The notes under the pieces: model-generated
The model's input: the letters and a program-made list of their open reading frames with translations, nothing else
Told to the model about the DNA's origin: nothing
Database searches by the model: none
DNA from: Owenia fusiformis
Lineage: Eukaryota > Annelida > Polychaeta > Sabellida > Oweniidae
Direction of reading: 5' to 3'
Assembly (NCBI GenBank): GCA_903813345.2
Contig: CAIIXF020000009.1
Coordinates: 18,317,759-18,381,758, forward strand
DNA length: 64,000 nucleotides
Shown here: in pieces, positions 16,901 through 61,900 of the stretch
How positions within the stretch are numbered: position 1 is the stretch's first letter
How the letters are laid out: every line of letters begins with the position of its first letter
Program-made: the position numbers and the translations under genes

Positions 16901-19900
16901 CTCTCTGGAAAACTAATAGATAGATAGAGGGCGAGGGGTGGGGATGGTTAAACAAACCCACATTTCAGTAATATCATCCCTTTTCATATGCAATATAATA
17001 ATATTGTGTTGAAAACATATTACATACATAGTAAGATAATGATGAATGAGGCTATTTACTAACACCATTCCACAACTAATTAGTTTGAAGTTAAAGTTCT
17101 GCTTTATGTTCAACTGAACTTGGCCTTCAGGTATTTTCACATGTTAAGACCTACCTGTAACTAAACATTGCCGTACCACCATGGTTAAAGTACAAATATA
17201 GTAAAAAGTGGAATTATAGAGAAATGAAAAAATCATATATGGTTTGAGGTAGACATTCGGAATTATACAGAAATCTAAGAAAATAATTCTCCCATCAATA
17301 GTTTGATTATGCTTCTTTAAAACATGTTCATCTTTAAAATGAGCTACATCTACACATTTTTTGTTTAGTTGAAAATTGAATGGTTTTATGGTTATGGTTG
17401 TATTATAGAATTCAATGCAAGGGTATAAGAAATAAATGTGATATTATATTTTTAGATTTCAAGATACTTAGTTTTACATAAATTGTATATGGTAATACTA
17501 ATAGATTGGAAAAAGTATAACTATAATTCATATTTTTCTTCATTACAGAGCATTAAGACTTCAACTTCTATGTCATTTATAAAGATTGCCTATTATTTCA
17601 GCCAAGCAACTGACATTTCGTTATGTGGCCTTTCCTTGAAATTATTAGGTTTACTTTGTCACCTTGCCAGGTAATCTCCATAGAACATGTCCTGAATATT
17701 AATTCTTGCGGATATACAGTGGGAGTTGTTCCAAATGTTATCACATTGAGATGTTCCAGAAATTTACAAGAAAATCAAAATTCAGCCATTTTCTCAAAAA
17801 GGAATACAAAGAAATTGTTGATTTCAGTTAATTTCCTTGAACCATGATTTAAGCGTCATACCTTTTCACTCGTATACTTGCAGTTCATCAATTTGTGGTT
17901 TAATTTTAGGATGAAGAGGCTACATTTTTGAATGGACTACCTATGTTTCAAATGTCAATGGACATGCATATTTCATGCTTAAAAATATGAATTAAGGTCA
18001 GATTTTCTGGCTTTATATATAATTTAGAATGCTTGTTTCACACCTGCTTGTCCATGTACTTTAATCCTTGTTTATTTCACTCTGTTTCACTCTATTTTGT
18101 TTTGTAAAACATGACTTCCTTTATATTTATTTACATTATGGCTATCGTGGTCAGGTGAATCAATGGCCCCTGGCTTGGATTCATCATTAGATAGAACTTC
18201 TAATTAATTAAAAGTTCAAACAAAGTGTAGTAGGTGATAAATGTGCCCTGTTGTTTTCCTAAATTAAGTGAATAATATCCATAACTGCCTTTTGGCCTTG
18301 ACTTATATAATACATCATGTTAATACCAGATTCTAGTTGGTGGGTGGTACAAATTCTGCTAATTAAACATTATGAAAACCATTTTTTAAATTATTATTTT
18401 ATGGAAACTATTCTTTGTTTCCCTTTTTGTTACAAAAGTGGGTTGATTTTATTTTGAATTTTGAGAACCTCTCAGAAAGAAATGCCTTGAGAATAAATTA
18501 TTAGAAAACTAAACTTGTGGAATACCTGAATTTGTTGAGTCAACATTATATTGATCCAGATTTTGTTGTCGAAATCAGACTTATAGTTGAAGTCTGTTTT
18601 GAAACTGACCAGTTGTTTTAAATCTTAAAAGTATTTTATTCATGAATCTCAATTATGGTACAGAAATACCTTTCCATGTTTTAACCTAAACAAACTATAT
18701 ACTAGGTGTACATTTCTGCCCAAATTGGAAGTCACATGACCCAACGCCTACCCATGTCTAAATGCTAAAAGACCTCATTTTTATTTAGGTTGTCTGTCTC
18801 TGACTACTATCTCTGACTTATACTGTATGTACAGTTATCATAATTAATTTATTTATTTCTCACCAAAGGCTCTTTCCTCTGGATTTCTCATAAAATATGT
18901 CGTTCATTGGCATCATATGGAACAGCAGCAAATTATCACATTAGGCCGATAATTGTATTTATACAGGAAAAAATAAATAGACACCAAAAACATCTGTCTG
19001 GGGTGTTTCACATAATAACTTCACATAAATGAACCTTGTGTTTTTTCATGGGTACTCCAAAAACACTAAAATAAGCATACAAGATGAATTTTTTCTCACA
19101 AGACCACCATTTACATCCCATAGGACTTTCTGGTAGAAATCGCCAGTGAAAATGTAATTGAATATATTATCACTGCTCTTATCAGTAGAGACATTCACTT
19201 ACCTAATACATCAAATACAGTTGCAGAATATGATGGGTATATTTCAGTTCTAATGTGTTTTCTATTGCTATGGTCACAAATACTGATCGAATTAAGTATT
19301 TCTCCTATCTTTATATCAAGTCTCTGTATTACTTCTCTTTTTCAAGAGAGATATTAAAGGAGGGGGACAATAAACTTGCATCAAAACTTTGTATCTCCAC
19401 CCCCTCTTCTCTCTTACTCAGGGTCAGACAGAGATATAACATTAGACTGTATCATTCATGTATCAGATACATTAGATTCTACACGGAAATGAAGGAACTA
19501 AAAAATCTCTGTGTCAGATTTGGAGATATAGCTGCAACAAAAAATGGTTTTAATACTAGGAAGGATTTGAAAAGTGAAAAATATGATTCGTAAATTGTAG
19601 ATAAAAGTGATATCTCATCTCTTGCTGAACTAGGTAACTGTGGATATTATATGAATCAGTCATCTAAGTTTAGATATAATTGGTTAATTCAGCTACATTA
19701 TAATGATAGGGCTGCCATGGGCCACATTATCTCATACGTATATATAGAAACAAACATTAAAACTGTGGACAAACATGAAATGACACGGAATGACAGATGA
19801 TTTAGAATTTCTAGTTCTGTAAAATAAAGATGCCATTGAATGACAAGTACTGTAGTATGTCAAGTATTGTAGAATTTCAAGTACTGTAAAATGACAGGTA

Positions 19901-22900
19901 CCATTGAATAACAAGCACTCTAGAATGACAAGTATTTTGGGATGACTAGTATTGTGGAATGACAAGTATTGTAGAATGACTAGTATTGTGAAATGACAAG
20001 TATTGTGGAATGACAAGTATTGTGAAATGACAAGTATTGTGAAATGACAAGTATTGTGGAATGACAAGTATTGTGGGATGACAAGTATTGTGAAATGACA
20101 AGTATTGTGGAATGACATGTAACAACTGATGTTCAACTCATATATTTCTAGAAGGCAAAAATACAGTATGATGCAGACCACAAAAGCTCAAACTATCATT
20201 TGCGATATTTGCATGTGGCAGTTACCTGATTGGGTATACCTTTAGACACATGTAATATTCATTTCAAAAAATAATATTGCATATTATATAACATATTACT
20301 CATAATAGGGCAATAATTGATGATATATATATGCTGGATCCACATACACAGTCTGATTTACTGCAATTACATTATATACTGGACGAATATGAACCTTTTT
20401 GGAGTGAGCCTGACATATTGTTTTGAATAAATAGATATTACATCGTTAAAAGCTACTTATTGCCTGTAATTGATACAGCTCAAGTGAACCTACTACTGAG
20501 TTTTGAAGGATTGTGTAACTAGTGGAAAAAAGTACAGCTTTCTTCTTTATAGAACATGCAAGTTAGAACAACATTTATACTCTCAATCTGGATATAGTGT
20601 TATTTTATGGATTAAAATGGCTTAGGAGGATTCAAGTAACTTATCGTGTGCTGGAGGTGTAATGGTGGATATACCCCCTCAAGGTTGTTCATGGCACGTC
20701 GGGCAGTAGCCCGCATACACAGGTTGCGTAAAAGTTATTGGGCACCAGGATGCCTCTGTGCTGCTAGGTCTTTGGAGCTTTTACATGAGGTACATAATAA
20801 TACACGATATATTGAAATCTTTAATTCGCTATTGTAGACTTGCATCAAGTCCCGGTCTCCCTATCCTTATGTTGCTAACTTCCTAATAGGGGTAAGGCAT
20901 GTGATAGGTTACAAGGGCCTGAAACAAGATTGTAATACCACACATCTATTCATTGAAGTTCATTTGATTCTTTTTTACCTTACAATCAACATATTAATAG
21001 ATATTAGCTATTAGATATATATTTAAATTACAATGATATACATGTATAGGAAATATAAAGCAGAAAGGTTTGACAAAATTCTGGACATGGTGAAATTCTG
21101 TAACATTTAATTTTGCAAGTTGTATAAAAATAGATGTTTTACTCATTATAGATGTCAGGCATGTATCTAGGTAAACTCTGAAAACTTGGATACAAAAGGT
21201 TCCTGTTCTTTGGTTTTTAAATTCAACTTACATAAAGATAGGAAATACAAGGAATGAAAGAATTGGCATAACTCCACTCTTAAAATGATAAACAATGCAA
21301 AAAGCTGTCAAGCTATGAATATTTAGAATAAGGAAAATCAGATTTTGTGAAGGTTCTCTGCTGCTCGATCATCATTTGTTTATTTCTGTCTTTCTGATTT
21401 GAGAAGGAAGGAAATGCCAATGTTTATCATGATGACTTGATAGCTGTATAATGTAGATCCTGTAAATTATCAATGCATTGTTCTAACAGAGGCTTCTAGT
21501 TGGAGATGTAGCATTTAAAGAAGCGAAATTAACTATTAAAAAGGGAGGTCTTTCATTGCCTGGTGAGATCTTGTTCATTTGAAAGGTCAGAGGTGCAGAA
21601 ATTGGGATGTCGAAAGTAGAGTAGTTTTGGGATTTACTCTTAACAGAAACAGAGGTAGAAGGCAACTCTTCCCAAGACGTTGCTATAATCAGTGTCTTGT
21701 CATTTCTATGCTAATTTCCATATTTTTATTAAAGTGTGAAACCTTGTAGATCAAGCTCATCTCTAGTTCCAGATTCAGTAATGTCATAGAAACATTGTCA
21801 GTAATCTGTATCGCAAACCCTCTAGTTATTGGCATATTATATATTGGTTGCAGAATATTATCTGTTCATTATGCTCCAAATCTATCACTACGATACTCAA
21901 GTGTTTTTACCAGCCAATTAAACACCTTAAAATAGCAAGATGTTATCTAAAACAGAGGTTAGACGTAAGGCCAAGACAGCTTGAATGAGCAACAACTTTG
22001 CACCTTATGCATCTGTTTGGAGCAACTGGTCTATGCTTAAAACATCTCTACTCATGCCAATTCCACTCCATTTCTCTTCATGATTTGAATGAAAATTTCG
22101 ATTTTTGCCATTTTTGTATTAATTTAGCATGGAACAAATGCCTGGTTACTTTACTCCTCTCAAATTAACTCTCATTCTATCGTCTCATTAAAAGGATGCA
22201 ATTTTGATATTTTATTTATTGGAAATATTACCATAAGATGTGAGCCAGTAAATATTGTATTTTTGCATCTTTCATCAAACAGTTGCATCGTATATAACTG
22301 GAGTAAGCTACAATATATCAGGGACTTTCAGGGTGCCTCTATGTTTGCGAATAGGTTGCATAACAAATTTTGAAAAATTAAGGCCCATTTTTGATAAATT
22401 GGCCAAAAAAGTCCAAATTATGCCCAAAAAGGCCCATTATTTTGAGGCCCTACAAAATCTGGGGGCCCAAAAACTAAAAATGTTTTCTGGGCCACTAAAG
22501 GGGGGGGGGGCGGATCCACCACTGAATCAGTTCTATATTTACCCTGTAACCTATTTTCACAACTGAATTATACATGCAGCCCTATTTTTGGTGACCCCCA
22601 GGCAAAATCTTGCAAGTGGGTTTTCCGAGTGCGCGGAAGAAGATCACACTGGAAAGTGAGTTTGTAGATTTGTTGATGGTACTTAAAAACTATGATGGTA
22701 CTTAGTCTTCAAGCCTCAAGTTTTTGAAAGTACACATCTTCATACCTAGAGAGATCAAGATTGATTTGTTGATGATTCTACGTCTCATGACCCGATATAA
22801 TACCATGTTTATGTACATCTGTGTTTTGTTGTGTGTGTGTATTAAACAAAAACATACTACCTACAAATGTTCACCTGAAGATAGCCAGAAGATAGAAGTA

Positions 22901-40900: not shown

Positions 40901-43900
40901 TTCTTGAGTGGCTTTCTGAGACAGGTGATGGTGAATTTAAAGTTGTGCGTGATCAAAGGGTCAGCAGATATAGTGTATATAAGGGGATAAGAGACTATAT
41001 TGCGAAATTTAATCAAGAACTAACAATGAAATATGGACAAATTGAAAAAATAATTGGTTAATAGGCAGGCATGACTGACACATTTGAAATTTGGTACCCT
41101 GTAACACTCTTTTAGAATCAACTTTTTCCACCTCTACAATATGTCGTACTCTTGCTCCACATACCCTGTTGTCATGTTACTATGGTAACCAGATACCCAT
41201 GTTGCTGGTCAAATTTATTGCTTATTTTTACACAAAATGAAACTACTATATATGGGGTGGTTATGGCCAGATATGAACAATTTTCATAAAGAATTAAGAT
41301 TTTTATAGCAAATGGTTCGGAACTTTTGGATCAACCCTCGTACATACATGTATATCTAAAAATGATTATAAAAACAGAAAATAACAAGAAGTAATTCAGT
41401 CATGTACATGTATATATATTGTCATGTACATGTACCATATATATATTGTCAGAATCACTTTACATGTGGAGTAAAACATGTATATAGTGAACACCTATAT
41501 AAAGTTCACTTTATGTAGATACTTACTACAGAGGGGATTTTATACAGGAGTTAATGTAAAATGTGTCTTGAAGTGGTGTTCACTAAACACAAGTGTTCAC
41601 AGAGAAAGGGTTTCGCTAAGACACATTTTACTGTACATGTATATAGCAAAGCCCTTTTCACACCATATACTTCCCAATATTGAGAATGGGAAACCCAGAG
41701 GGAGTTTAGTTTATATAGTAACTTACCAGGAAGTTTTGCTTTAATTCTGGTGAATATAAATCGAAACCAAATAAGCATTAAAAATATGTTTTGAAGTTAC
41801 TGTTTCTGTTCATCCTTCCTTTTATATTCTGTTATTTGTACCAGAAACACCTGAAATTATAATGTTGGATTTAAAATGATTAAAGAGAAAATATAAGCCA
41901 TGGACTTACATGAAGTCCATGCTGAGCCTTATGAAAGAATGGCTATAAAGAATGGGGAAGATGATAACCCCAAAGAAACTGAGACTCTTTGGTTTAGCGA
42001 TATGGAAATGTCCTCAGAATCTAATAGATCTTGTTTTATTGATGCAGAAAAAGAACAAACATTAAGCACTGAAAAGTCGAGATCAACCTGGTATTACAAA
42101 CTAAAGGAAATTACCATTGATAAACCAGAAGCAAGTTATTTATTTGTAGATATGATAATTAATAATAAAAGAATGTTGGATGTTTGTGTAATCCTGCATA
42201 TTATTTGTGTAATCCTGCATATTATTTGTGTAATCATGTTCTTATTTTTGTGTTTTTCAGCAACTCAAGGATGAGATCCTGGAGGTGACAGGGGAAATAG
42301 ATGGGATGGATGTCTCATCAGAAAAGTAAGTACCCTTAGCAAGATCTTAACTTTATATTTACTCTTTAGCTAGGAGGTAATTCTTTGATTTTGCCTCTGT
42401 ACAATCTAATCATTTGAATCAGGGTAAATACTTATAGCCAGAAATCATGACAATGTATTGTATAGCTGTCATTAATTTACATTCAAATGTTCATCAATAA
42501 ATCCTACATTAGAGATCGTTGAGATTGATCAGCATCATATCTACAATAGTCAGAGGGTAGTATAGCTACCCAGTTGGATTTAAAATTTAATAGTCAATAA
42601 AACAGTTATAAAAAGAATATTTTTGCATGAACAATGAACATATTAACTGACTTGACTATTGTTAAAAACCGAACCATTTTTCAATTTAACTTCCTGATTA
42701 GTTCTGCCAATGGTCTTTGAGAAGGTTTCCTAAAGGTTTTAAGTAGATGGATCTTTTATGTTTGTTTTTGAGATAGCTTTAGGAAGGGAATTCCCTTTTC
42801 ATATAAGTGATTAAAAGTGCCTATCTATTGCTTATACCATAGAGAAAATCTCTTAACATAGAAGATTTGTTTTCAAGTGATTTATCCATCTCTACCCATG
42901 TAATATTGCCATTTGTATGTGTCTCGTGGAGTTCAGAAATTGAACTGGCAAAAACCAGACAAATGAGGTAACATGCTATTGTTTGGAATTCTCTCTAAAG
43001 ATTGAATTACATGGTTCCTCTATTGTTTCAACATGCTAGACATACGCTTCTTGTCATACAAAATTGAAACATATCTTTATGAATTGTTGGTAGATAACTT
43101 AAAATCTGTTACAATTCATCATAATAAAAAGTCTATAGTTTTGGGAGAATGTTTGAAGGGCTTCTCAAGATCTATGGGGAAGAATGGTATTCTCTTGCCA
43201 TTCACGTTTTGCAATATATCACGAAATGTTGATAAATGGAATGTCAAAATAATGATTTAACGCAATTTGTCAAATATAATGGCTTTACTTATCTGCTGTT
43301 GGTTATGATTTTAAATGGCAACATGACATGGTTGGAACATTCCTTGTACAGTGTACTGTATATCTCTCCCAGTGTTCAAGAATCCATCTCACCCTATGCA
43401 GACAGAGCCTGTGGGAAATATTGGGTGCGGCGCAAATGAGCGGAGGGTGCGGAGCTAACGGTCATTTTTGAATTTAAATTTGGGATATTTCTGGAACTAA
43501 GCCGTTTTGGGACTTCAAATATACCAAGATATGTGTATTTGACACCAAATATCAATAAAATTGTGAAAATAGTAGTGCAATTCATTTTATAGCGACGCAG
43601 TATGCCTTAAACATTTCCCAGACCTATATATTTTGAGACTATCCTTTTAATACTGCGTCCCCAGCATTCATAAAAAATGGTGTTCAAGATACACTACCCA
43701 TGCAAATTATTTTTGCATCTTGGAAGCCAGGCAGTATCTGTGTGATTTTATAAAAATTCGGAAATGCTCTTCAGATATGAGCCCCCTCTAATATTGGGTG
43801 CGGAGCTACGTTTATGGAGCTGCTCCGCACCCAATATTTAGAGGGGGCTCATATCTGAAAAACATTTCCGAATTTTTATAAAATCACACTGATACAGCCT

Positions 43901-46900
43901 GGCTTCCAAGATGCAAAAATAATTTGTATAGATAGTGTACCTTGAACACCATTTTTTATGAATGCTGGGGACTCAGTATTAAAAGGATAATTTCAAAATA
44001 TATAGGTCTGGGAAAGGTTTAAGGCACACTGCGTCGCTATAGAATGAATTGCGCTACTATTTTCACAATTTTATTGATATTTGGTGTCAAATACACATAT
44101 CTTGGTATATTTGAAGTCCCAAAACGGCTTAGTTCCAGAAATATCCCAAATTTAAATTCAAAAATGACCGTTAGCTCCGCACCCTCCGCTCATTTGCTCC
44201 CCACCCAATATTTCCCACAGGCTCTGTCTGCATAGGGTGCATCTGCTGTGATCGATTGAGAATCGAAATTGCTTTCACCCAGTTGAAAACTCACGAACAC
44301 CCAGTTAAGATTTTGGAACATTATACTTTAAATAAGTTTTAGATATTTCTAAATCGGGATCACATACAATGAGATACATTTTGAGTTTCTTGAATGGGAA
44401 AACTGTTTACCATCTGGGGTACTATGCTTTAAGACAGTTCAGTGCATCTCGCTTGTCTGTGGAGCATGTTTGGTGCACTTTTTGTGGTAGAAGGTGACTT
44501 TGTACATAGCCATCCTTTACTATTGGCATAAGTGGGCATCTTGCTCCCACTTACTTAGTCCTAGAAAATAAACTTTGGTTTACCACATGCTTTACTATAA
44601 AGAACCATGTGCTACATCAATATCTAAAAATAAAATCAAAGACTGAGTTCAACATTAAAAGTGCTTTGATTCTAATTCTGTAATAATAGAATGATTCTGT
44701 CCCCAGTTGACATTTTGTAAATACCAAAAGACAATATCATTGTTGTTGAATGCATAATGAAAGGTTTAAGATTGGTATTGTCAAGGCTAATAGGCATGTT
44801 ATTAATACTTTAAACTGTACCAAACTGCAGGAGAATTTGACACTTCCTTCAAATTTAAGAAAGGAATTGAGTGAAATTAGCACTAGGAGATGATTTTAAG
44901 CATGGGTTGTCATGTCAACCAGCCTGATTGAAGCTATCTTTAGAATTGTAATTGTAATTTAGAGTACATGACCTCATAATTATGTTTTGTCATGGAAGTA
45001 TTGTTATGATATCATTTTCAGTTTGTTTTGGTGATGCTGGCTGGGTTCTATACACTTCTACTTAATTATTTTCTGGAGATTTTGGGAATGTTTAATATCA
45101 CGTTAATGAATTTGTAAATGTTCAGAAGCGTGTGTCATGTTGTTGGAGTATTTCCCCTTACACCTGCAAATGTTGCTTAACTTTCTCGAATACAGAGGAA
45201 GCAAGGAAACTTAAGAAATAAACAAACTTGAAATTATGCTCCATACTAGCCATACTGCAAAATATCAAAAATCCAACATCATTTTGAATGTACATGTAGT
45301 AGTTCATGAACATTGTTGAAATGTGTGAATGTATAAAACAGTCTGCAAGAATTGTGTTGAAGTGGTTCTTCCATGAGTATCTGAAGATAAATTAATCCAA
45401 GAAACTAAAAATGTTCTTCAACCTATACTTAGGAATATTGCATTAGCCGTGCCTATTTCATTTCTTTAACTCTAGATTATGATTAAAGTGTTTGCCTTTC
45501 TGGTATTTCTATACAATATTCTAGGGTAGAAGCTTTTGTGTGTGTAATTGCTCATTTGGTCGCTTATTTTTGTATTTTATGTAGGGGTTTTATATGCATC
45601 TCTCTGTGAATCCCATGTGATCAATTTTTTTATATTTTCATGACAATCTTGCATCCTTCTCCTACCTCTAATATATTTCTTATGAGGTATACTCTTGTTT
45701 TTAAAATGTCACTTTTAGTGCTTTTTCAGTTTCATTTTTTTCTTCAACTTCAAATTGAGTTAGTAATCTAATCTAATGTGCTACATCTGTCCAAGGATTA
45801 TTTAATTGACAACCCTAGTTCTCAGATACCCTCATATGACCTTTCTACTTATGTCTCTTGGTAGAGAAATCCTGCTACAGATGGGAAGTGGATAAATCCC
45901 ATATATAGTTGACCTGCATGAAAATTGTATGAGAATCTTGATGTTATCCGTCTTGTGTTTGTTTGATAAAGCACATTTATATATAGTTCTAACTTTTTGC
46001 GCCATGTTTGTCAGGGATTGATATTATTTTCATTTCATTCTATTCATGTTTCAGTGTTTGATGCTAAGATGTTATTTGCCTTTGGGAACAGTTATTGGAT
46101 ATTTATTTTTTTGTCCAAAAGTTTTCCAAATTCTTAAGGTACGGTATCAAATCAAGTTTTAATATATCCCCTGCCCCTAGCATGCACATCATCTGGTTGG
46201 GGAGATACCGTTTGCATCCTGTTCTTCTTAGTTGAGAAATAAGGGCAAGGGGGTTGGACTAAGACTACAAACCAGTTGAATCAGGCTTATGGTAATTCTA
46301 CCATTCCGTGTCTGTTTCTCTAGTAAAGGTTGTATTTTTACCTTCTTTGATTGATGTTCCTCAATATACTGTTAACATTTTCTCTTTGCTTCATCAACAG
46401 AGAGCTTAGCTTCAAAAGCAAGGGCACTGACCCATATATGTTGTACATATATTGTTGGTATTTTGAACTACTAATATGTTATATCTGTCTTCACTTCTTT
46501 GATGCTCAGCTGCATTAGTGGTTGAACCATGATTGCTTGGACATACATGGGATTCAAATGTTGCTCATTTTTGTTGAAAATTATATGTCTGTATTGTATT
46601 AAGGCGTGCAACAGATATAATTCAATTCCAATAAAGTAATGTGAAATGTAACACCATAAATGATTGATGGGGACCATGCAACATGCTTATGCCTAGAATA
46701 CCCTGGATGTCATGGATGTAGGATGTATGTATTAGTTATTAGCTACTTCATTTGGTGCTGTCATTTAGCGTAACTTCAGACATTTCCTCCCATTATATAT
46801 CTACTCTGTGTCATGTCATATTCTTTTCCAGTTAACATATTCAGTCCTTGACATCTAGTCATACTCTCCCTTACTAGTATTTAGTAATTTATTCTACTCT

Positions 46901-49900
46901 CATAACGTCCCCCAACCCCTCATACTATCAGTCAATGTGAAAGAGAGGGAGTAATATGCCATGCAATAAACAAGAACACAGTACTATGTTTTTTGTGATC
47001 TTCACACTCAGAGGGCACCTTCATGTAAGATGGAATTTTCAGTCAAGTTTTCCATGTGATCACTGGTCAGAAATATTCTTGTCATAAATGCTCTTTCTGA
47101 TTCTTGAGTCGCTAATGCTCAACAGCGTTACATTTATATATGCTTTCAAAAAAGGCATTTGAGTGACTAACTATATTTTTTTCATTTCTCCTTGATATCA
47201 CTAAAATGTTAGTCTCTAAATGTCTTCAATACTGCCATCTTTATATCAATAGAAAAATATCTAATAAACCAAGCCTCTTGGTGGCGATGTGCAAAAGACA
47301 GAGGCTCAATATTGACACTTGGAAGAGGGTTAAATAATCCAGAATTAAAAGATGATCCTGCATAGAGGTTCATATTGACATGAAAATAGGCTCATCTTTG
47401 AATTCTGGATTATTCCCCCTTACATTTAATATCATAGGAGACAAAATGCGACATTTGTACATTTGTTTATTTTGGACATATGTATGTTTATGTTTATTGA
47501 AGTTAGATAACATTATATATGTGAGGATATGTGACCTTGGCATCTGGTTACAGAAGCACATCCTGGTATCATATTACATCCATTGGATTCAGTAACAAGA
47601 AGTCTTTGTCATTCATCTCCACATATTCTTCAATTCATTAAGGTCCATTTGGGGTTAGGCCTTATTTTATATCTTGAAATGAATGAAGTTAAACTATGTT
47701 GTTCATGGTTGGCATAGTCTCAGTTCTTGTGTTAAAAGGACTTCGCGCCACAAATGGTCATTTTAGTGAATGGAGTTTCAAATGATGCTCATGTGAATCA
47801 GAACCATGGATTCTTCTTTAGGTGTAACTCCTTGAGCATATGATTTTATAAAATGATGGTACTGCTTTATATTCAGTAGTCACTTTCGTTTATTTAGATG
47901 ACTCAAAATTATGTATATCCTGAATTTACTTACCTCAACCACATTTACCATCTAGGTAATTATTTTTCAAACTAAAAAGTCCTCTAACTGCTAAGCTCTA
48001 GGCCAGGGGTCCAGAAACTCTCTGAGGATAAGTGTCCAGCTGTGTGGACCAATCAGAATCCTGATGATCTGTCACTCCTTACCACTTCTCCGGTTGCTTT
48101 CATTGAAAAGCACCTTCAAAATTCTTGTAAAAAGAGACTAATCGGAGGAGACAAATTAAATTATTGGACTAATTAATTAATAGAGATAAATATGTTGGTA
48201 GTAAAGGATTAGAGCATTGGATTAAGAGAATAATGGATTAGTGTCTCTGGACTAACTAAGGAAGAATGCAAGTCAGTTCGCTAGTGTAGATTTGAAGGGG
48301 GAAAGAACATTATGACCTTTGCATAGATTTAAGAAGTGAATTTTCTTAGAAAGAGACTATTAGAGAGAGATTTGTCATTACTATTATTGGATTGTCTCCC
48401 AGATAGCTGTACATTATCATGTAGATCAGCTAGTCATGGATAAAGTACAAGTATATACATGGATGTATATGGATTTATAAATATGGAGTTTAATGAATAT
48501 GGATTTATTTTATGCATATGGACTTAACTGCAGAATATCGTATTAATGTCATCAAATGGCAAAATGAAAACCATTGACATGGGGTTTTCTACATTGGAAA
48601 GGTAGAAGATATTTAAACTTTTCATTATATAGGGTTCAATCAGTGAATATGAGCCTAGTTTTGCATAAAGTCTCTATTTCTTCCCCTCCATCTTACTATT
48701 CTAATGGCTTGATGAAGATTAACACTAGCCATATGTTTGGCCTCTGTTTTAAACCATTGTTTATTTCATTGTTTTATTTGTGTACTTTCAGAAATAACCC
48801 CAAGACAAAGCAAATGTCCATTGGCCGCAAAAAGTTCAATATGGACCCCAAAAAGGTATGTTTTACTGTTAAGTTAAAAACAAAAGTCTAATATTCAAAA
48901 TGTGTAAATGAATATCATAGATTGCAGATTATTACAATACATTTGATGCATATAAGTATATGAAGCACAGTGAAACCTGTATATCTAAACAACTCACAAT
49001 GCGAAACACTGGAACACCGGCCAATCCAAACACTTTTTGCCTGTATTAGTGGAGTTTAGTTTAAGCAGGTGATGCTGTATGTATTAAACATAAGATATTC
49101 TTCAGTTTTGTACCTAGTCTTTGTCTATCCCCATATCTTTTCACAACTCTGTAACAGTTGAAAATAGACTAGATTAGAAATGACCATAATGTAAGCTGAC
49201 AAGAATCACTGCAACGGATATAACCACAAGAATTGACTTGTTTATATCTATTACAAACAACCTTCATTAACCCTTGGAACTGAAAACAATTAAAGAGAAA
49301 ATGTCCCTTTTCTGAATGATATAGCAATTTATATGACTTGTGTTACTAAATATGTCACTCTTTTTGATATAGTAAAAAGGGTTTTAAGTATGCTGGGGGT
49401 AGAATAAGGTGAACTAAGGAATACCAGTTTCTCTTGGCCAGTTGATACCTCCTGACTTTTTAGGAATTGGAGTATGTGTCTCAGATTTGTAGAAGTTTTT
49501 GTTTTTTGCACTTGGCAATAGACTCTACTAGAAATCCACAACTTATGATGTCTCCATCTCCATTAGAATAAAACCTTTCAAAGATGAGTTTACACCTTTT
49601 ACCCCTTTCCTACGTGTGTTCTCAAAATACCAGGTTTTAATGATCTTGATTGCAAAAACATTTTCACCAGTTCTTTTGATGAGCTTAGAAAGCTGTTTAA
49701 CATATGCTTTCTACCATGTACCCTTTTTAGTTTTTAACCTTTTTGTCTCTTCTGAGATCTGCTTCCGTTGCCATCATTAAACCTCTGTTTTTGTGGGGTT
49801 TAATTCAGCATATGGACCAAATGAAACTAGTAACACCTATTGGTATAAATCCCTGGGTTAAAGTCTATAAGAATGCAATGTACAAGGAGGTATTTTCAAT

Positions 49901-52900: not shown

Positions 52901-55900
52901 CTCAACATCATCCATCATAAACTCTTGGATCTGTTTCTTTGTTTTGGCTTGGTATCCCATAAAATCTAAGTACAAATTGTACAAATTACATTCCATCATG
53001 TCTGAACCCTCACACTTTCTTGCTATCTCTTATAAGCTCAACTAAACAGTTATTGTTGATTGAAGAAAACTATTTAAAGGTGAATACTCGATATACTATG
53101 TTTATATTAGAAAGGTTCCTTGTACTGTGTAATATATAAGACTGAAGGCAAAAGTCTCATCACCTTCTCTCTAATCAGGTTTTATCATTGCTATTACTTT
53201 GATCCTTCTTCAAAGATTTTCTGATAGATGAGCCCTAGAAATTAATAATTCCCCAGCAGGTATAACATGGAGTCATCCTTATAATATTTTATGATGAGAT
53301 GCTGTATGACTTATATTAAGGAAAGCTGAGTAGAATAAATAAGTGCTTGATTAGCTTGAAGCTTCGAAGATATCCTATGGGACCTACCTTAATCTTTGAA
53401 CATGTACTATGCACTCTTTGATGAGTTGGCCTCGAAAATGATATTGAATTGAAGCTGCAATATTCTTAAAATGACCCAGTGTATGTATATGTCACCATCT
53501 CGCAGGAAATAAAAGCTTTTTGAACCGTAACTCACTTAAAAACCCTTCTTGGATCATTTGTCCTAAAATGTAATGCATGCTTTCATGTTATTTATCAAAT
53601 AATAAGCAAAACAATTTAATATTGACTATTCTATATTCTTCTTGCAGGGGATTGAATACTTGTTGGACCATGGCTTGCTACAGAGTACTCCAGATGATGT
53701 GGCTCAGTTCCTCTACAAAGGAGAGGGCCTCAACAAGACAGCGATTGGAGATTACTTGGGGGAAAGGTAAAAATATATCTTCACTCAAAGTAATAAAACT
53801 GGGTTAATATTATATAGTTTATAGATAGATTCTAGTGATAAATCTTCATATTCATGTTAAATCCATCCCTCAAAGATGAGATTCATGAGGTTTTCTATTT
53901 AGTTTGCTGTTTGCTGTTTATATTGTCTATTTCCTGTATTTTGCTTCATTTCTTGCTTGTTTTGTATTCCAAACCTGGATTCACGAATTGAGTTGAAAAC
54001 ATGATTTTTTATCGAGAAAGCAAAAACATTTTTCTGCCCCTCGATAATATCTCAGAAAATAAATAAACTGAAGTGCTCAGAATCAGAGATATTTTCTTTA
54101 AACCTTGAGCCCAAAACCACCCGTTATGATTAAAATATGGATTCTTTGAATTATTGATTTACTCTTTGTCAATCCTGTCAGGTTATACAAAGTTAAACAC
54201 AAACAATAAACATTTTTGTAATACGTAAACGTCCAATAACAACTGCAAAAATCACGATTTGAGCCTAGTTCTAAAGTCTAGTAAGCACACATGATCTAAT
54301 GTCGCCATAAGTAGCTCGCCTTGGTAGATTCTAGGGTCAGGTTGCGTCTATACCACCACCAATGGAGTAACAAGTTGAAATGAGAGCCTGCAATAATATT
54401 TGTGATGACCCAGAGTTGGGAACCCCATAGAGAGGAGTCTGTGTATCCTTAGGGTTCAGTAAAAAATGTTATATTTCAGAAACAAAGAGATAATTAAGGG
54501 GTTAAACGGTATATCGTGAATCCTCCAAATAATTCTCGGATTAAATCGTTCTTAACTTATCATATTAATTCATAGCTCAATGACTAATTAATATGCTATT
54601 TACATCATTTATGTTTTTTTAATAAAAAAACTTGAAAATGTTGATTAGTTCAAAGGAGAAACAAATTGACTGTTATCTGGTTGCATTTTGAAATCATTTT
54701 GCAAAAAATCTCAGTCGTTAGTAAGTGTATATATCATAGTTCAAATTCCAAGGTTGACTTTTGAATTTTTTGTTAAACTCTACTGAGAATTTCTTCATAA
54801 TGTTTTTATTTTCACATGGTCCTTGGTGACTCATTTCTGACATTTGCTCAGGAAATGTCATTGTGGTTGTATCTTAGAATGTGAATGGAGTGAAAATAAG
54901 ATGAATTAGCAAGGAATAAAGTAAACATGCACAAAATAGACACTCTAAACTTCATGAAAATGTCAGAAAAGCAGGCCTCTCATTCAGATCTTAGAGAGAA
55001 ATTGAGTAAAATAGGCATGACTGAGATGACATTTGGTGAGAATTAAGCACATCCAGGATCATTGGATTATGTTTCAAAACACCCAAACTCCCAAGAGGTT
55101 CAACATATCACTTTTGTGACCTCAAATAAATATTATGAAAAAATTACAGTTGAAGAAATTAATGCCAAAAAGTTGCCCAACAAAATAAAAAGCAGCTGCT
55201 CAAAAAGCTCCCTATACAGTAGTTTCAAAAATCAAAATATGAATGAATACAAAATGACTTAAAAAGATGCATTAAAGAAATTTTTAATTGAAGCTTCGTG
55301 TTGTATATTGTTTAAGTTAGTATATTAATTATTTGACATTGACTTATCTGTTTTTCTCCAGGAATGACTTCAACATAGAGGTGCTGAATTCATTTGTGAA
55401 TCTTCATGAGTTCTCAGATATGATCCTGGTGCAGGCACTCAGGTAAAAAAAATTTCTTCTTTCATTTATTTGAAATATTTAGAATTGCATCCATGTACAA
55501 ATAATAGTGGCACATACACCTCTAAAGATTTATAGTATTTTGTCATTAGGTTAAAATGTGGTAAATGTGATGTGAAATGTCTTATAAGTGAATTTAACAA
55601 AGTTTTTCCCCTTTCTTCTTCTTCCCCCTGCCAAATTGCCAATAAAAAAAGATATACATTTATACAATTAATACCACCAGAATGTGAGTCATTTTTACAC
55701 ACTGTATTGACCATTTCAATGGCATTTAAAGTGCCCGATAAACTATAAAATGCGCATGCGTCCAGGTGTTGATAAACTATAAATAGCGAAAATCCAGGGT
55801 TTGTCACCACAAGGTAAGCCAGGACGTGTTGAGAGAACAGCTAGTGTTGATATTGAATTTACATGTAGCCAGATAAGTTTCCTTATTGAAATTACATATG

Positions 55901-58900
55901 GTTATTAGCAATACTTTGTAGGTGCTAAATAATAAAATATTTAGAGTATATATGAGAGAAATTGGTCATTTCGAACCTGTTGAAAAGTTTGTGGCTCTCG
56001 GCTACACCGGGGAATTTACTTCCATGAGTACACACATAAATGTGGGGTTCCCCAAGAGGTACGCGACAAGGTGACCTGGCATCAAATGTGCGACTAAATG
56101 CTACTATCGAGAAGATAAAATAACGAATACGACAATAAGTTATTGCATGTGACAATTCCGAGCCTTCATCTCACTGAAGTATTTTGAAGTGAAAATAGGA
56201 TTTTTGTTTTGATACATGGATTCAGATGAACGTAACTTTATTCTGACAACTAATCAAAACTGAACAAAATTGATTGTACGTAACAGACAATTTATTGTTT
56301 TACAATGTTTTGATTGGCTAAACGAAAGAAACCAACAAATTATGACATGTAAAATGACAATTTTGAAATGTAAAATTTAAAAGTGGCAAACACAACCTCC
56401 CTATCCACTCTTTGGGAGCCCTAGTAAATTAGTAATATGTACATGCAGCAGTGGTACACTATGCTTTGTATTCTAAAGCCTGTTGTTTGTAATAACACTG
56501 TTCACTCGTATGTTTTGTGTGTAGGCAGTCAACGATTATCATATTGTTTTATCCCAGTTTATATGACCTCGGCAATTATAACAGAACCGTACTAAACGAA
56601 AAAACGCAAATAAGAGAAAGCTTTCACACACATATAAAAAATGAACTAGTCAAATCCGCCAGTATAAACTCTGTGCTATACGTAGCCGGGTCAGGCGCAC
56701 ACTTTAACTAACACTGACACATATGTTCATTTCCAGGCAGTTTCTGTGGAGCTTTAGGCTTCCTGGTGAGGCACAGAAGATTGACAGAATGATGGAAGCT
56801 TTTGCCAAACGTTATTGTGACCTCAACATAGGAGTCTTCAACACCACAGGTAAATCATTGGCTCATTTCACACTTGGGGTATCTGCAAAATTTCATTATT
56901 GAACTGAAAACATTGTTATCAATAGGAATGTTACGAAGATTACAGTGCACTGAATAGACTTCTATAGACACCAGTCCAGACTTTATAGCTTCTCAGTACC
57001 TATTGGGGAGAATACTGGGATATTCAAGAGTTGTAATTCCTGACTTAAGAAGGCATATTGCTGCAATTGTCTTCCCATGTAAACATTGATACCTCAATTA
57101 TACAGATAAATAAATATACAATAGCAGATACACAATTGCTGTTAATGGCAATTTTATATGTACATTCTTGGACTTGTTGATTATGAGAAATAAATGTATA
57201 TGGAAATTAACTGCCAAGATATTTATCGAACTGTTCCTATTTTCAGATACCTGTTATGTGCTATCATTTGCCATTATAATGCTGAACACAAGTCTTCATA
57301 ATCCATCAGTCAAAGACAAGCCAAGTGTCGAGAGATTCATTGCAATGAATCGTGGGATCAATGATGGTGGAGATCTACCTCCTGAGCTATTGACTGTGAG
57401 TTCAGCAAATATGTTGTTTTGTAATGCCTTATGGTGATATTGTCCAGGATGTGCTATGTCCATTTGTTTATTGAGAAAATACCTGTACAAAGACTCAGGA
57501 AATATCTGACCTGGTGAATTGATATCAGATATCATACTCAAGGATATAACAGATTAAATTGACTATATAGTCTACAATTAAAATAATTGTGCAGTGCAGT
57601 GCAGTACAGTACATCCAAAGTAGTTGAAAATCATTGCTATAGTTTGAATGTGATTTTATTGCAGAGCTTATATGACAGTATCAAGAAAGAGCCATTCAAG
57701 ATTCCAGAGGATGATGGCAATGATTTGATGCACACATTTTTCAACCCCGACAAGGAGGGTTGGTTATGGAAACGAGGTCAGTACTCTCTAAATACAGGAA
57801 TTGTTCATGAAAAGAAACCACTACCGCTCCACTTTTGATGCTCTATCATTTGTCATTATTTTGTGTGTTTTAATTTAGTTAGTAAATTTTTGCTTATAGT
57901 ATTTCAGCTTATGAACTTTGTGGTGTTTATAATGTTATGAGAAGTTTTCATGTTGGCATATAGAGCATTGAATATAAGGAGCTATATATAATTGTATAAA
58001 ATGTGTATCACGGCTGTGTTTGCTTAATTAAACAAAGAAATATTAATGTGATAATGAAATCAATTCAACCGTGATGTTTTTAAAGAGAATGTTTGCTATT
58101 TCCTCACCAAGTAGTCGCACAGTTTGCTTACACTTTCCCACCTCCATCCCCATTCATCACTTAACACCGTGTGAACCTCACATCTGTGAATGAATTCAAG
58201 TGCTTATTCAGAATATGATATATATTAGGGAGAATTCTTTTGCATCTAGTAACCCAACCTTCACAAATAATATACCTTGATAATATGCTACTATACAGTA
58301 ATTTCAACTCGGAAATGTTTTGCAGTATTAAAAGAGCCATATATTCACCATTTTACTGTTTTATAGTCTTTCTGGAATTATTTTCTTGTATTATAAAAAA
58401 CTGTGGTTATCATGTGTGTAAAGAAAAATGTTTTAATAATAGTATCCAGGCATGCGCTAACTACATGTATGTGTATAAGTATGATGAATATATGGGTCTT
58501 AATACACTGAAAATGTTCTTGTACTATGTAGTCAACACACATGTAGAAACTTAATGAATGTTTTTTAATGAACACTAAGTTTGCATTAATATTCAGTACA
58601 TGTTCTCATAACCAATCTTTGATATTTTAATCTGTAGGGGCATCGAAATTAAGTAAGTGCGAAAAATTCTTGGTCACCAAATTTTATGTAGGATATTTAT
58701 GTCTTGTGTGTGTGTAATTTGACTGTAGTTCTATTAAGTTACTGTGCACTTTATATTTTTATTTTTAAATGTGATTATTTTTATTATCGATGAAAGCACA
58801 TTAGAAAATTGTAGATGAATTTCAGTTTCTGTATATTTTGTATGGTGATTTTTATATGTCTATGGTAGAATTCAGCTCAATTTTTTCAGTCCATTTTAAG

Positions 58901-61900
58901 TCAATGCACTGCATACTAACTTCATTTTAACTCATATTTTGTTTTTTCATTATTATGTGTATGGTAGTGTATTAAATGTAAAATATGAATATTAAGATTT
59001 TAAACTACATTTACAAATATACACTTTGTTTTTGAAATTCCCAAATATTCTTAATTCACGTTTTTTTCATTAATTATGTGATCCTTATAGCCGATTAGAT
59101 ACTAAATGTACTGTATTATCAAAATATATGTTCATATTTTTGTGCTTCTTTCTCATTCATAAATCAGGCATGGTTTAGCTTTAACTCCAATCCAGCCAGG
59201 GTCACTACACAATACAGTATACAGAAAATTCAGGATTTGCCAAAATATGAATATTTTAAACCTTTTTGTGTAGCTGTTCAAAAATACATGTATGTGAAAA
59301 TTTGGGAACTGGTTTTGGAGCTGTAACTGAAATGCAAAATTGTAGAAAAGTGAAATTAGCAAATAACAGAACTTTACACCCAAGCATTACTATTTCTATG
59401 ATCAGGTGTCAGTATAGGGATATCCATGGCCATTGGCTGTCAAAATGGTAGATGGGAATAACATATAATCTTGATGGCTTGATAATCTTGAAATTCCATT
59501 AAGAAGAGGTTTAAAATCTATCACAAAAGAGTTGGAAATTGTTGATTCCAGTGCACCATTTTGAAAGATAGTGTAATAACCATAATGAACCTTAATATTG
59601 GCTGTTTATGGAGACATTTTAAAAAGTGGGTTAAAATAGTTGTGTAGAGAGTCTGTTTTCCCTCCAAGCTGTCCACATGTAGTTATTTTCAAATGAACCA
59701 TGCATGACATGTTTGACAAGTCTCCCAATTCATTGGATTCTTATAAGTCTGAGGAATCAGAATATAACTTACAATTCTTAACTCCAAAATATATACATTT
59801 ATGTAGGTTTTATGCTTCAATTCAAGGGGCCCGGCTCAAGTAAGATATGAAATAAATGTGTAACATGTATGTATGTCTGAATGCATGCAGTGAATGTTTT
59901 TGAACAAATATGACACTTCCAAAGAAGCTCAATTCCCATAATGCCAAAGCTCCCTTGTTTACAATGATGCCTAACAATTGATCTATAAGAATCCCATATT
60001 GACTGGTACACATTTTTCTTTGCGCACTTTCAAAAGGGATGTATCAATATGAACTTTGCATGAGTGAACATCACTGTGTTCACTGTATTTATGAATGTTA
60101 ACATCTTGTTTGGTTCTCCTTTCCTTTCTAATCCCTTTCTAATTGAGAGGTTGTCTCATATATTTCTCACTAAATTCTACATGTGAGTGGTTGGTAAAAG
60201 ACTGCTTTGTTAAAGGCTAATAGCTAGAATTCTCATCATAATGAATGGAAGAAATGAAGCTTGATACCCAAGTTTATTTGTTATGTAACTTGGATTTCAT
60301 TATGAATTCAAAACATTTTAGGGTTATTTAGGATGAGAGACTTGAGTTACAGCAATTAAACCTTAAAATGAACTTTTAGAAAAAATTCCCAAAGTTCAGT
60401 AACAAGGGTTGGTGGCTGTACTTTCATTCAAACAAGTGAATTATTTGTATAATTGTGTGTGGAATTTTTGAGGCAACCCTTATTTAGATAATATGTGTGG
60501 ACAAGAGGATGATATGTTAATGTTGATGTATTTATGTTTACAGGTGGCAGATATAAGAACTGGAAGAGACGCTGGTTCATCCTTAATGATAACTGTCTTT
60601 ACTACTTCGAGTTCACAACAGTAAGTTCATTTTTGATATTAATACCTAAAAAGGTGCTGTATTTATGTCAGCTTGGCAAATATCACTCTGTGAAAACTTA
60701 CACTTAAAATGTAAGTGTAGTTATGATGACATAGTTTGTGGATGCAGTCTCTGCTTTGGGTCACTCACCCCTTTTTATCATGTCTCTGAATATTGTGAAT
60801 TGAGAACAGGGATACCTTATGCTGTACTCATATATGATTAAACTAATTTTAAAATGATAAAATAACATCCGCAACTGAACACCTATATCACATGATATTT
60901 TACCTCATGAATTAAAACAGCTGCCATTGACACTTGCAGGACAAGGAACCCAAGGGAATTATACCTCTTGAGAATATTGGGATCAGAGATGTGGAGGACA
61001 ACAAGAAACAGCACTGCTTTGAACTCTACTCCACTACAAATGAAATCATTAAGGCATGTAAGACAGACACAGATGGCAAAGTCATTGAAGGTAACCAGTT
61101 TATAATTTTTGCTTTGATTAAACAAATTCACCTCCCTTTATCTGTGTATATTCACAATCTAGTACTATCAAGACCAAGTTGATGGTATGATGGGGTCACA
61201 AAAATAATGTGCTCAATACTTAGGCTTCTAAGTAAAATAGTTTATAGCAAATATGATGTTAATCATATAATCGTTAACATTATTTCGCATATCAGATCTT
61301 GAGAACTGTAAATTGAATAAGACTACTATCTAATATAAGCCTAATGGGGTTTAATGCTTGTGTTTACATTTGCAGGTCATCATATGGTGTATAGAATGTC
61401 TGCTGCTACTTATGATGACAAGCAGGATTGGGTGAAATGTATTAAGTAAGTTGGTTGAGGTATCTTTGAACTTAACTTCAAGTTCCCATTGTTCTCTTGT
61501 CCCTAAATGGAGATGAGAATCATAAGTCATAGGGGTCAAACGGTTAACCGCGGTACGCGGTTACCGCGGTTAATGATGCTAGGACGGTATTTTCGGTTCA
61601 TAGATATGAGATTCGGTTCATCCACGGTTCGAGGAAAAATTGAAAAATGAAAATGGTTCGACATGAACTTATTCTTCATGTATATATTCCTTAAAAACAT
61701 GTTTATAGTTATAGAGAACATTCAATTCTTACCTTAGATATGAAACAGATCGCTCATAAATCGATAGACAAGTAATTGTTTACATTTTTGTGACATAGAC
61801 CGGAAGTTGGTCTCGCCAGATTACGCTATTCATAGTGCAATTAATTTTGCTTCGTGGAGGTGTTTTGTCTGTTATAATGAGTTAGTTTTTATTAATCAAT

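Follow-up and report, generated by a model that had tools for sequence, protein, structure and literature searches.

What is a near-perfect palindrome of 850 bp doing between two exons of a gene in the annelid Owenia fusiformis? The palindrome lies at 43390-44239 of a 64,000-nucleotide stretch of genomic DNA, which we refer to as the window. The original prediction described it as a foldback element, with two 417-bp arms around a 15-bp centre, that had inserted into an intron of a cytohesin gene and was flanked on either side by CATCT. We found that each part of this description holds. Our analysis indicates that the palindrome is very probably a non-autonomous cut-and-paste DNA transposon of the foldback (long-inverted-repeat, MITE-like) type, residing in the cytohesin intron. 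The features of the locus are as follows, in window coordinates.

42261-42326, plus strand: coiled-coil exon upstream of the element, position approximate, host gene presumably cytohesin-like
43385-43389, no strand: left target-site duplication (TSD), CATCT, from reading of the flanks; a query of the joined flanks matches the 5-mer in both flank hits
43390-44239, no strand: whole palindromic element, 850 bp, from the repeat finder, arm comparison and family alignment
43390-43407, plus strand: terminal 18 bp, CACCCTATGCAGACAGAG, the end counted genome-wide
43390-43806, plus strand: left arm, 417 bp, from arm comparison
43417-43433, plus strand: subterminal motif beginning AATATTGGGTGCGG, repeated near the tip at 43790-43806
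43807-43821, no strand: 15-nt hairpin tip, where deletion endpoints of other copies cluster
43822-44239, minus strand: right arm, 418 bp, from arm comparison
44222-44239, minus strand: inverted copy of the terminal 18 bp, CACCCTATGCAGACAGAG, from the genome-wide count and self-comparison
44240-44244, no strand: right TSD, CATCT, from reading of the flanks and the joined-flank query
48802-48855, plus strand: coiled-coil exon downstream of the element, position approximate, host gene presumably cytohesin-like
53603-57395, plus strand: span of Sec7-domain matches of the host gene, from domain matches (Pfam)

We located the palindrome with an inverted-repeat finder, which reported arms of 402 nt each (43390-43791 and 43838-44239) that are 96% complementary. 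When the 417-nt arms were compared without gaps, 389/417 positions matched. Eleven of the 28 mismatches fall within the innermost 15 positions, because the left arm in the window is missing one base there. Comparison of the whole element with its own reverse complement (BLAST) gave 94.6% over 852 columns. The loop at the tip is 15 nt, TACGTTTATGGAGCT, and the element is otherwise all inverted repeat (417 + 15 + 418 bp), as in a foldback element. The termini read 5'-CAC..GTG-3', and CATCT directly adjoins the element at both ends. Folded as single-stranded RNA, the element has a predicted energy of -710.5 kcal/mol, compared to a mean of -204 in 20 shuffles (z = -58). A scan of the window with Rfam at gathering thresholds gave no matches.

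The palindrome lies between two coiled-coil exons that we take to be those of a cytohesin, and it is therefore intronic. Matches to the Sec7 domain are found downstream on the plus strand. We compared five reading frames from the window to Pfam. One match was over the cut-off (Sec7, 57114-57434), one match to a PH domain was under it (60931-61179), and three frames had no match.

We found that the palindrome belongs to a high-copy family of foldback, MITE-like elements, as one insertion among several hundred copies that are nearly identical in those aligned. The assembly of the host is 498 Mb in 525 contigs, and contigs C1-C12 (31.9 to 62.2 Mb each) together contain ~477 Mb. A search of the assembly with the left arm gave at least 75 matches (40 of 935 candidates scored). 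Allowing up to one mismatch, the 18-bp end occurs 1,460 times genome-wide (747 + 713), and the 37-bp centre, allowing up to two, occurs 498 times (259 + 239). The control count was 0 in both cases. These numbers confirm that the palindrome is real, and that it is neither a chance occurrence nor a unique assembly error. We examined 100 of the 1,460 end positions, all within the first 33.7 Mb of C1, where the density of ends is 2.97 per Mb, compared to 2.93 per Mb genome-wide. The 100 ends formed 44 pairs and 12 single ends, although two of the "single" ends (L007 and L011) turned out to be pairs once more mismatches were allowed, and the last single end sits at the very edge of the stretch covered. 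Most of the 44 pairs (29) were 840-865 bp long, close to the family consensus of 851 bp, and 12 were shorter and 3 longer.

The copies are flanked by short duplications. Among 65 paired copies, 58 had an exact TSD of 5 bp, five had one of 6 bp, and two (L060 and L093) had no exact TSD. The family makes TSDs of 5 bp and sometimes 6 bp, which supports CATCT in the window as a target duplication. In the full-length copies with a 5-bp TSD (36 of 40), the TSDs were AT-rich, and the bases next to them showed a weak symmetric bias, towards C on the left and G on the right.

We also found sites that resemble the target before insertion. The joined flanks of one copy (L045) matched at least 41 uninterrupted places with 95-99% identity (40 of 3,743 candidates scored). 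The flanks of L058, L002 and L041 were part of the same query, in which the matches of L045 took up all the candidates scored. The joined flanks of another (L090) were 83% identical across the junction to L085, with a single ATGTT, and, again across the junction, 80% identical to a place on C12, with no net change in length. In contrast, when the two flanks of the window insertion were joined, they matched nothing but the locus they came from, as two separate pieces sharing the 5-bp CATCT. These flanks are single-copy, and no empty site was therefore found for this insertion in the assembly. The expectation of empty sites was borne out for other insertions of the family and not for the one in the window.

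The family seems to have spread recently, because its copies resemble one another. We aligned 40 full copies, which differed from the consensus by a mean of 0.87% and from each other by 1.6%; 18 of these came from a set chosen as the best matches to the left arm of the window copy (L041-L060), and divergence is therefore understated, above all in the left arm. The 21 copies from C1 alone, 20 taken in list order and one (L007) from the single ends, averaged ~1.0% from the consensus.

We found that the differences between the arms are older than this spread. Inside one copy, the mean difference between the two arms is 4.9% (3.65 to 6.57 among the 40 copies). Aligned with each other, the consensus arms show 20 differences, of which 19 are substitutions and one is an indel; five of the 20 fall in the loop. 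For 18 of these substitutions, each arm has the same state in 38-40 of the 40 copies; at the remaining site, the right arm is divided 30:10. As nearly all copies share them, the arm differences predate the spread of the family and were already present in the ancestral copy. They therefore cannot date the insertion in the window, and they argue against ongoing homogenisation of the arms. Over the 40 copies, the 15 arm-difference sites outside the tip make 600 cells. The two arms agreed in 20 of these, 10 of which belong to a single subfamily site; four more contained a gap, and all others kept the arm difference. Mirrored changes were found at 3 of 251 changed sites, one of them in the window copy. 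Based on these results, gene conversion between arms is at most rare.

These findings bear on the age proposed for the element. The original prediction took the high identity of the arms to mean a recent insertion or ongoing homogenisation, and suggested that the few arm differences could be used for dating. Recency survives for the family, by the likeness among copies, and arm identity is no evidence for it. The homogenisation and the dating do not survive. In a foldback family, the copies inherit their arm differences from the master copy, and similarity of the arms therefore fails as a clock for insertion.

The element appears to encode no protein, as had been predicted. The consensus has one 70-codon open frame in each arm. 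The arms differ at six nucleotides inside these frames, and all six differences change an amino acid. Among the 132 changes in both frames in the 40 copies, 18 were synonymous, 103 were non-synonymous and 11 created a stop. The synonymous fraction (18/132) compares to about 27% expected without constraint. With no excess of synonymous changes and with 11 stops, the frames give no sign of protein-coding constraint in these copies.

Our results suggest that the mirror point of the palindrome is where copies are prone to break. Thirteen copies on C1 have kept both ends and lost internal DNA. In eight of the 13, an endpoint of the deletion was within 20 bp of the centre, compared to 1.6 expected for random placement of deletions of the same lengths, and only 2 of 100,000 simulations reached eight; this is a small sample from one stretch of one chromosome, and the ±20-bp interval was chosen after seeing the data. 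In two copies (L011 and L018), two neighbouring gaps were counted as one deletion. The deletion junctions had 0 to 6 bp of microhomology. Five one-armed copies (L081-L085) end at positions 420-467, and one-armed copies were excluded from the count because a left-arm query favours such endpoints. The one-armed copies on C1 end at varied positions, for example 224, 291, 321, 363 and, twice, ~440. The loop itself also varies, with 24 nt in L092 and L095 and 17 nt in L060.

We looked for a longer, gene-bearing element with the same terminal inverted repeats (TIRs) and found none in the parts of the assembly examined. Two long copies, L001 (3,103 bp) and L002 (2,976 bp), are split at one point and were read as carrying nested insertions of other DNA rather than as autonomous elements. 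A third candidate, L003, with 635 extra bp, was also rejected. The one-armed copies L081-L085, with their extensions (L086-L088), showed neither a second end in the 4.0-4.5 kb that was read nor any transposase-like sequence. Their longest stop-to-stop frame, of 164 codons, matches a polysaccharide mono-oxygenase domain (LPMO_10) and evidently belongs to neighbouring DNA. It was one of four frames flanking one-armed copies that we compared to Pfam; another had a sub-threshold ubiquitin match and two had no match. Compared with one another, the stretches beyond the arm in L081-L085 did not match. Separately, there were weak matches among other leftover DNA, for example between L001 and L010 (70% over 166 bp).

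Could the hairpin instead be kept for a function? It might be a source of double-stranded RNA for Dicer or for editing, as the original prediction suggested, and might regulate the host gene or silence the family. The very stable predicted fold and the location in an intron are consistent with this, but the same family is found in hundreds of other places, and over the 33.7 Mb of C1 covered by the list, ends are about as dense as in the genome as a whole. In addition, the 20 differences between the consensus arms, five of which are in the loop, include six A-C mismatches and six G-U wobbles. We consider a functional hairpin very improbable. Palindromes can also be misassembled, and a locus like this one could in principle be an artefact of assembly or an inverted duplication unique to this place. 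However, the family has hundreds of copies scattered through the genome, and those that were read differ in their TSDs and flanks. These results refute the explanation, and we give it next to no weight. Our results are most consistent with a transposon. A transposase encoded elsewhere would bind the ends of the element, perhaps at the repeated subterminal motif GGGTGCGG, cut the element out, and insert it into 5-mers rich in A and T. The recent amplification would have started from a single asymmetric master palindrome, with arms already ~4% diverged, and copies would then decay preferentially at the hairpin tip. The decay is likely due to breakage of a hairpin or cruciform, or to stalling at the tip of repair synthesis after excision. 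An excerpt of PMC3315005 describes cutting of palindrome hairpins by the E. coli hairpin nuclease SbcCD, a homologue of Rad50/Mre11. A comparable activity in this genome, like stalled repair, would account for the clustering of deletions.

Two kinds of transposase might mobilise the element, and either would be a refinement of the transposon explanation. A Transib/CMCT-type transposase is possible, although we are doubtful of it. The 5'-CAC..GTG-3' termini and the predominance of 5-bp TSDs (58/65) fit this type. However, Transib targets are GC-rich whereas the targets here are AT-rich, and 5/65 copies have a TSD of 6 bp. The part of PMC12730594 that concerns CMCT elements states that they mostly share 5'-CA..TG-3' and have TSDs of 2-5 bp. 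The Pfam model of RAG1 (PF12940) had no match in the assembly, but the control was silent too; this result says little about Transib. A hAT5/hAT6-type transposase is, in our estimate, unlikely. It would account for the mixture of 5- and 6-bp TSDs, and hAT domains are common in this genome, with at least 138 matches to the hAT dimerisation domain (150 of 183 candidates scored). However, hAT ends usually begin with YAG, and the end of the element was not found in the 1.2-1.5 kb downstream of 40 of the 138 hAT matches, a distance at which more remote ends would be missed. Two weak 12-mer matches in this downstream DNA (L078 and L124) were at chance level by our estimate. The names hAT5 and hAT6 refer to TSDs of 5 or 6 bp, according to an excerpt of PMC12730594.

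The pattern of deletions at the tip is the part of these results most worth following. With hundreds of palindromes of the same sequence, one can tally breakpoints throughout a single genome as well as between individuals, and such counts would make the instability of palindromes in an animal germline directly measurable. We tentatively propose that the family offers a natural assay, spread over the whole genome, for hairpin breakage in the germline, in which repair of several hundred near-identical 850-bp palindromes would repeatedly join the tip to a site in one arm, leaving one arm whole and the other cut short. The same tentative proposal extends to the transposase, which may come from a lineage outside the described superfamilies, with 5'-CACCC ends and duplications of 5-6 bp.

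Foldback elements with long inverted repeats include FB of Drosophila and Galileo. Like these, the element described here consists almost entirely of its inverted repeats. It differs from Galileo in its TSD, which is 5-6 bp here and 7 bp in Galileo. Galileo belongs to the P superfamily, as given in an excerpt of PMC4168063. We found no description of this foldback family among the literature matches listed, in a search that most subscription journals and Repbase lie outside. The 5'-CAC end and the 5-bp TSD resemble those of Transib and RAG-like transposons as excerpted from PMC7204232; in contrast, CACCCTATGCAG does not match the consensus given there for the TIRs of protostome RAG-like elements (CACTWMCAAAC...). 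In the literature on CACCCTA and transposons, only hATm looked relevant. The letters CACCCTA and TAGGGTG are common to both, but hATm, in the portion of PMC6004678 that describes it, has the opposite arrangement (5'-TAGGGTG..CACCCTA-3') and TSDs of 8-9 bp rather than 5-6 bp, and we therefore rejected membership in hATm. The element is like MITEs in its TIRs, short TSD, high copy number, mostly uniform length, AT-rich sites and lack of coding constraint. Unlike the usual MITE, it is almost all arm and, at 850 bp, slightly over the usual size; an excerpt of PMC6004678 uses a limit of 800 bp. Foldback families of this MITE-like sort are already known, and this one is otherwise an ordinary transposon.

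We found that two copies of the palindrome family adjoin foreign DNA with tandem repeats inside it (L002, positions 667-2788; L006, positions 392-2001). Judged from the offsets of self-matches, the period of these repeats is approximately 147 bp. The two junctions almost coincide, at about 560-566 of the element, and comparison of the L002 insert with the L006 insert by blastn gave no mutual match.

At another locus (L008 and L032; contig C1, 10894579-10897683), the left flank and the start of the element are present twice, approximately 2 kb apart and in direct orientation. One copy is complete and the other is truncated near the centre. This arrangement is probably a local duplication that took in the insertion. 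The copy L045 (C10:5565503-5566653) is flanked by a host repeat with at least 41 uninterrupted, near-identical copies (95-99% over ~150 bp). The repeat is another family of recent spread. Past the broken arm of the one-armed copy L084 lies an open frame of 164 codons in which the lytic polysaccharide mono-oxygenase domain LPMO_10 is recognised (E 1.1e-13); the frame evidently represents a gene of the host, or a fragment of one.

In the window copy, a change at 43494 on one arm has its match at 44135 on the other (consensus positions 105 and 747), possibly a small arm-to-arm conversion. Elsewhere in the window, a minisatellite (19838-20121; 17 bp unit, 16.7 copies) underlies the only stop-to-stop frame of at least 150 codons among the window frames listed.

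Three matches of the hAT dimerisation domain in the host assembly (C3:12133832, C4:27607246 and C12:5797238) have equal scores and equal open frames of 267 codons each; downstream DNA was taken from C3:12133832 only (L071). The equality of scores and frames suggests that a hAT family was active recently in this genome.
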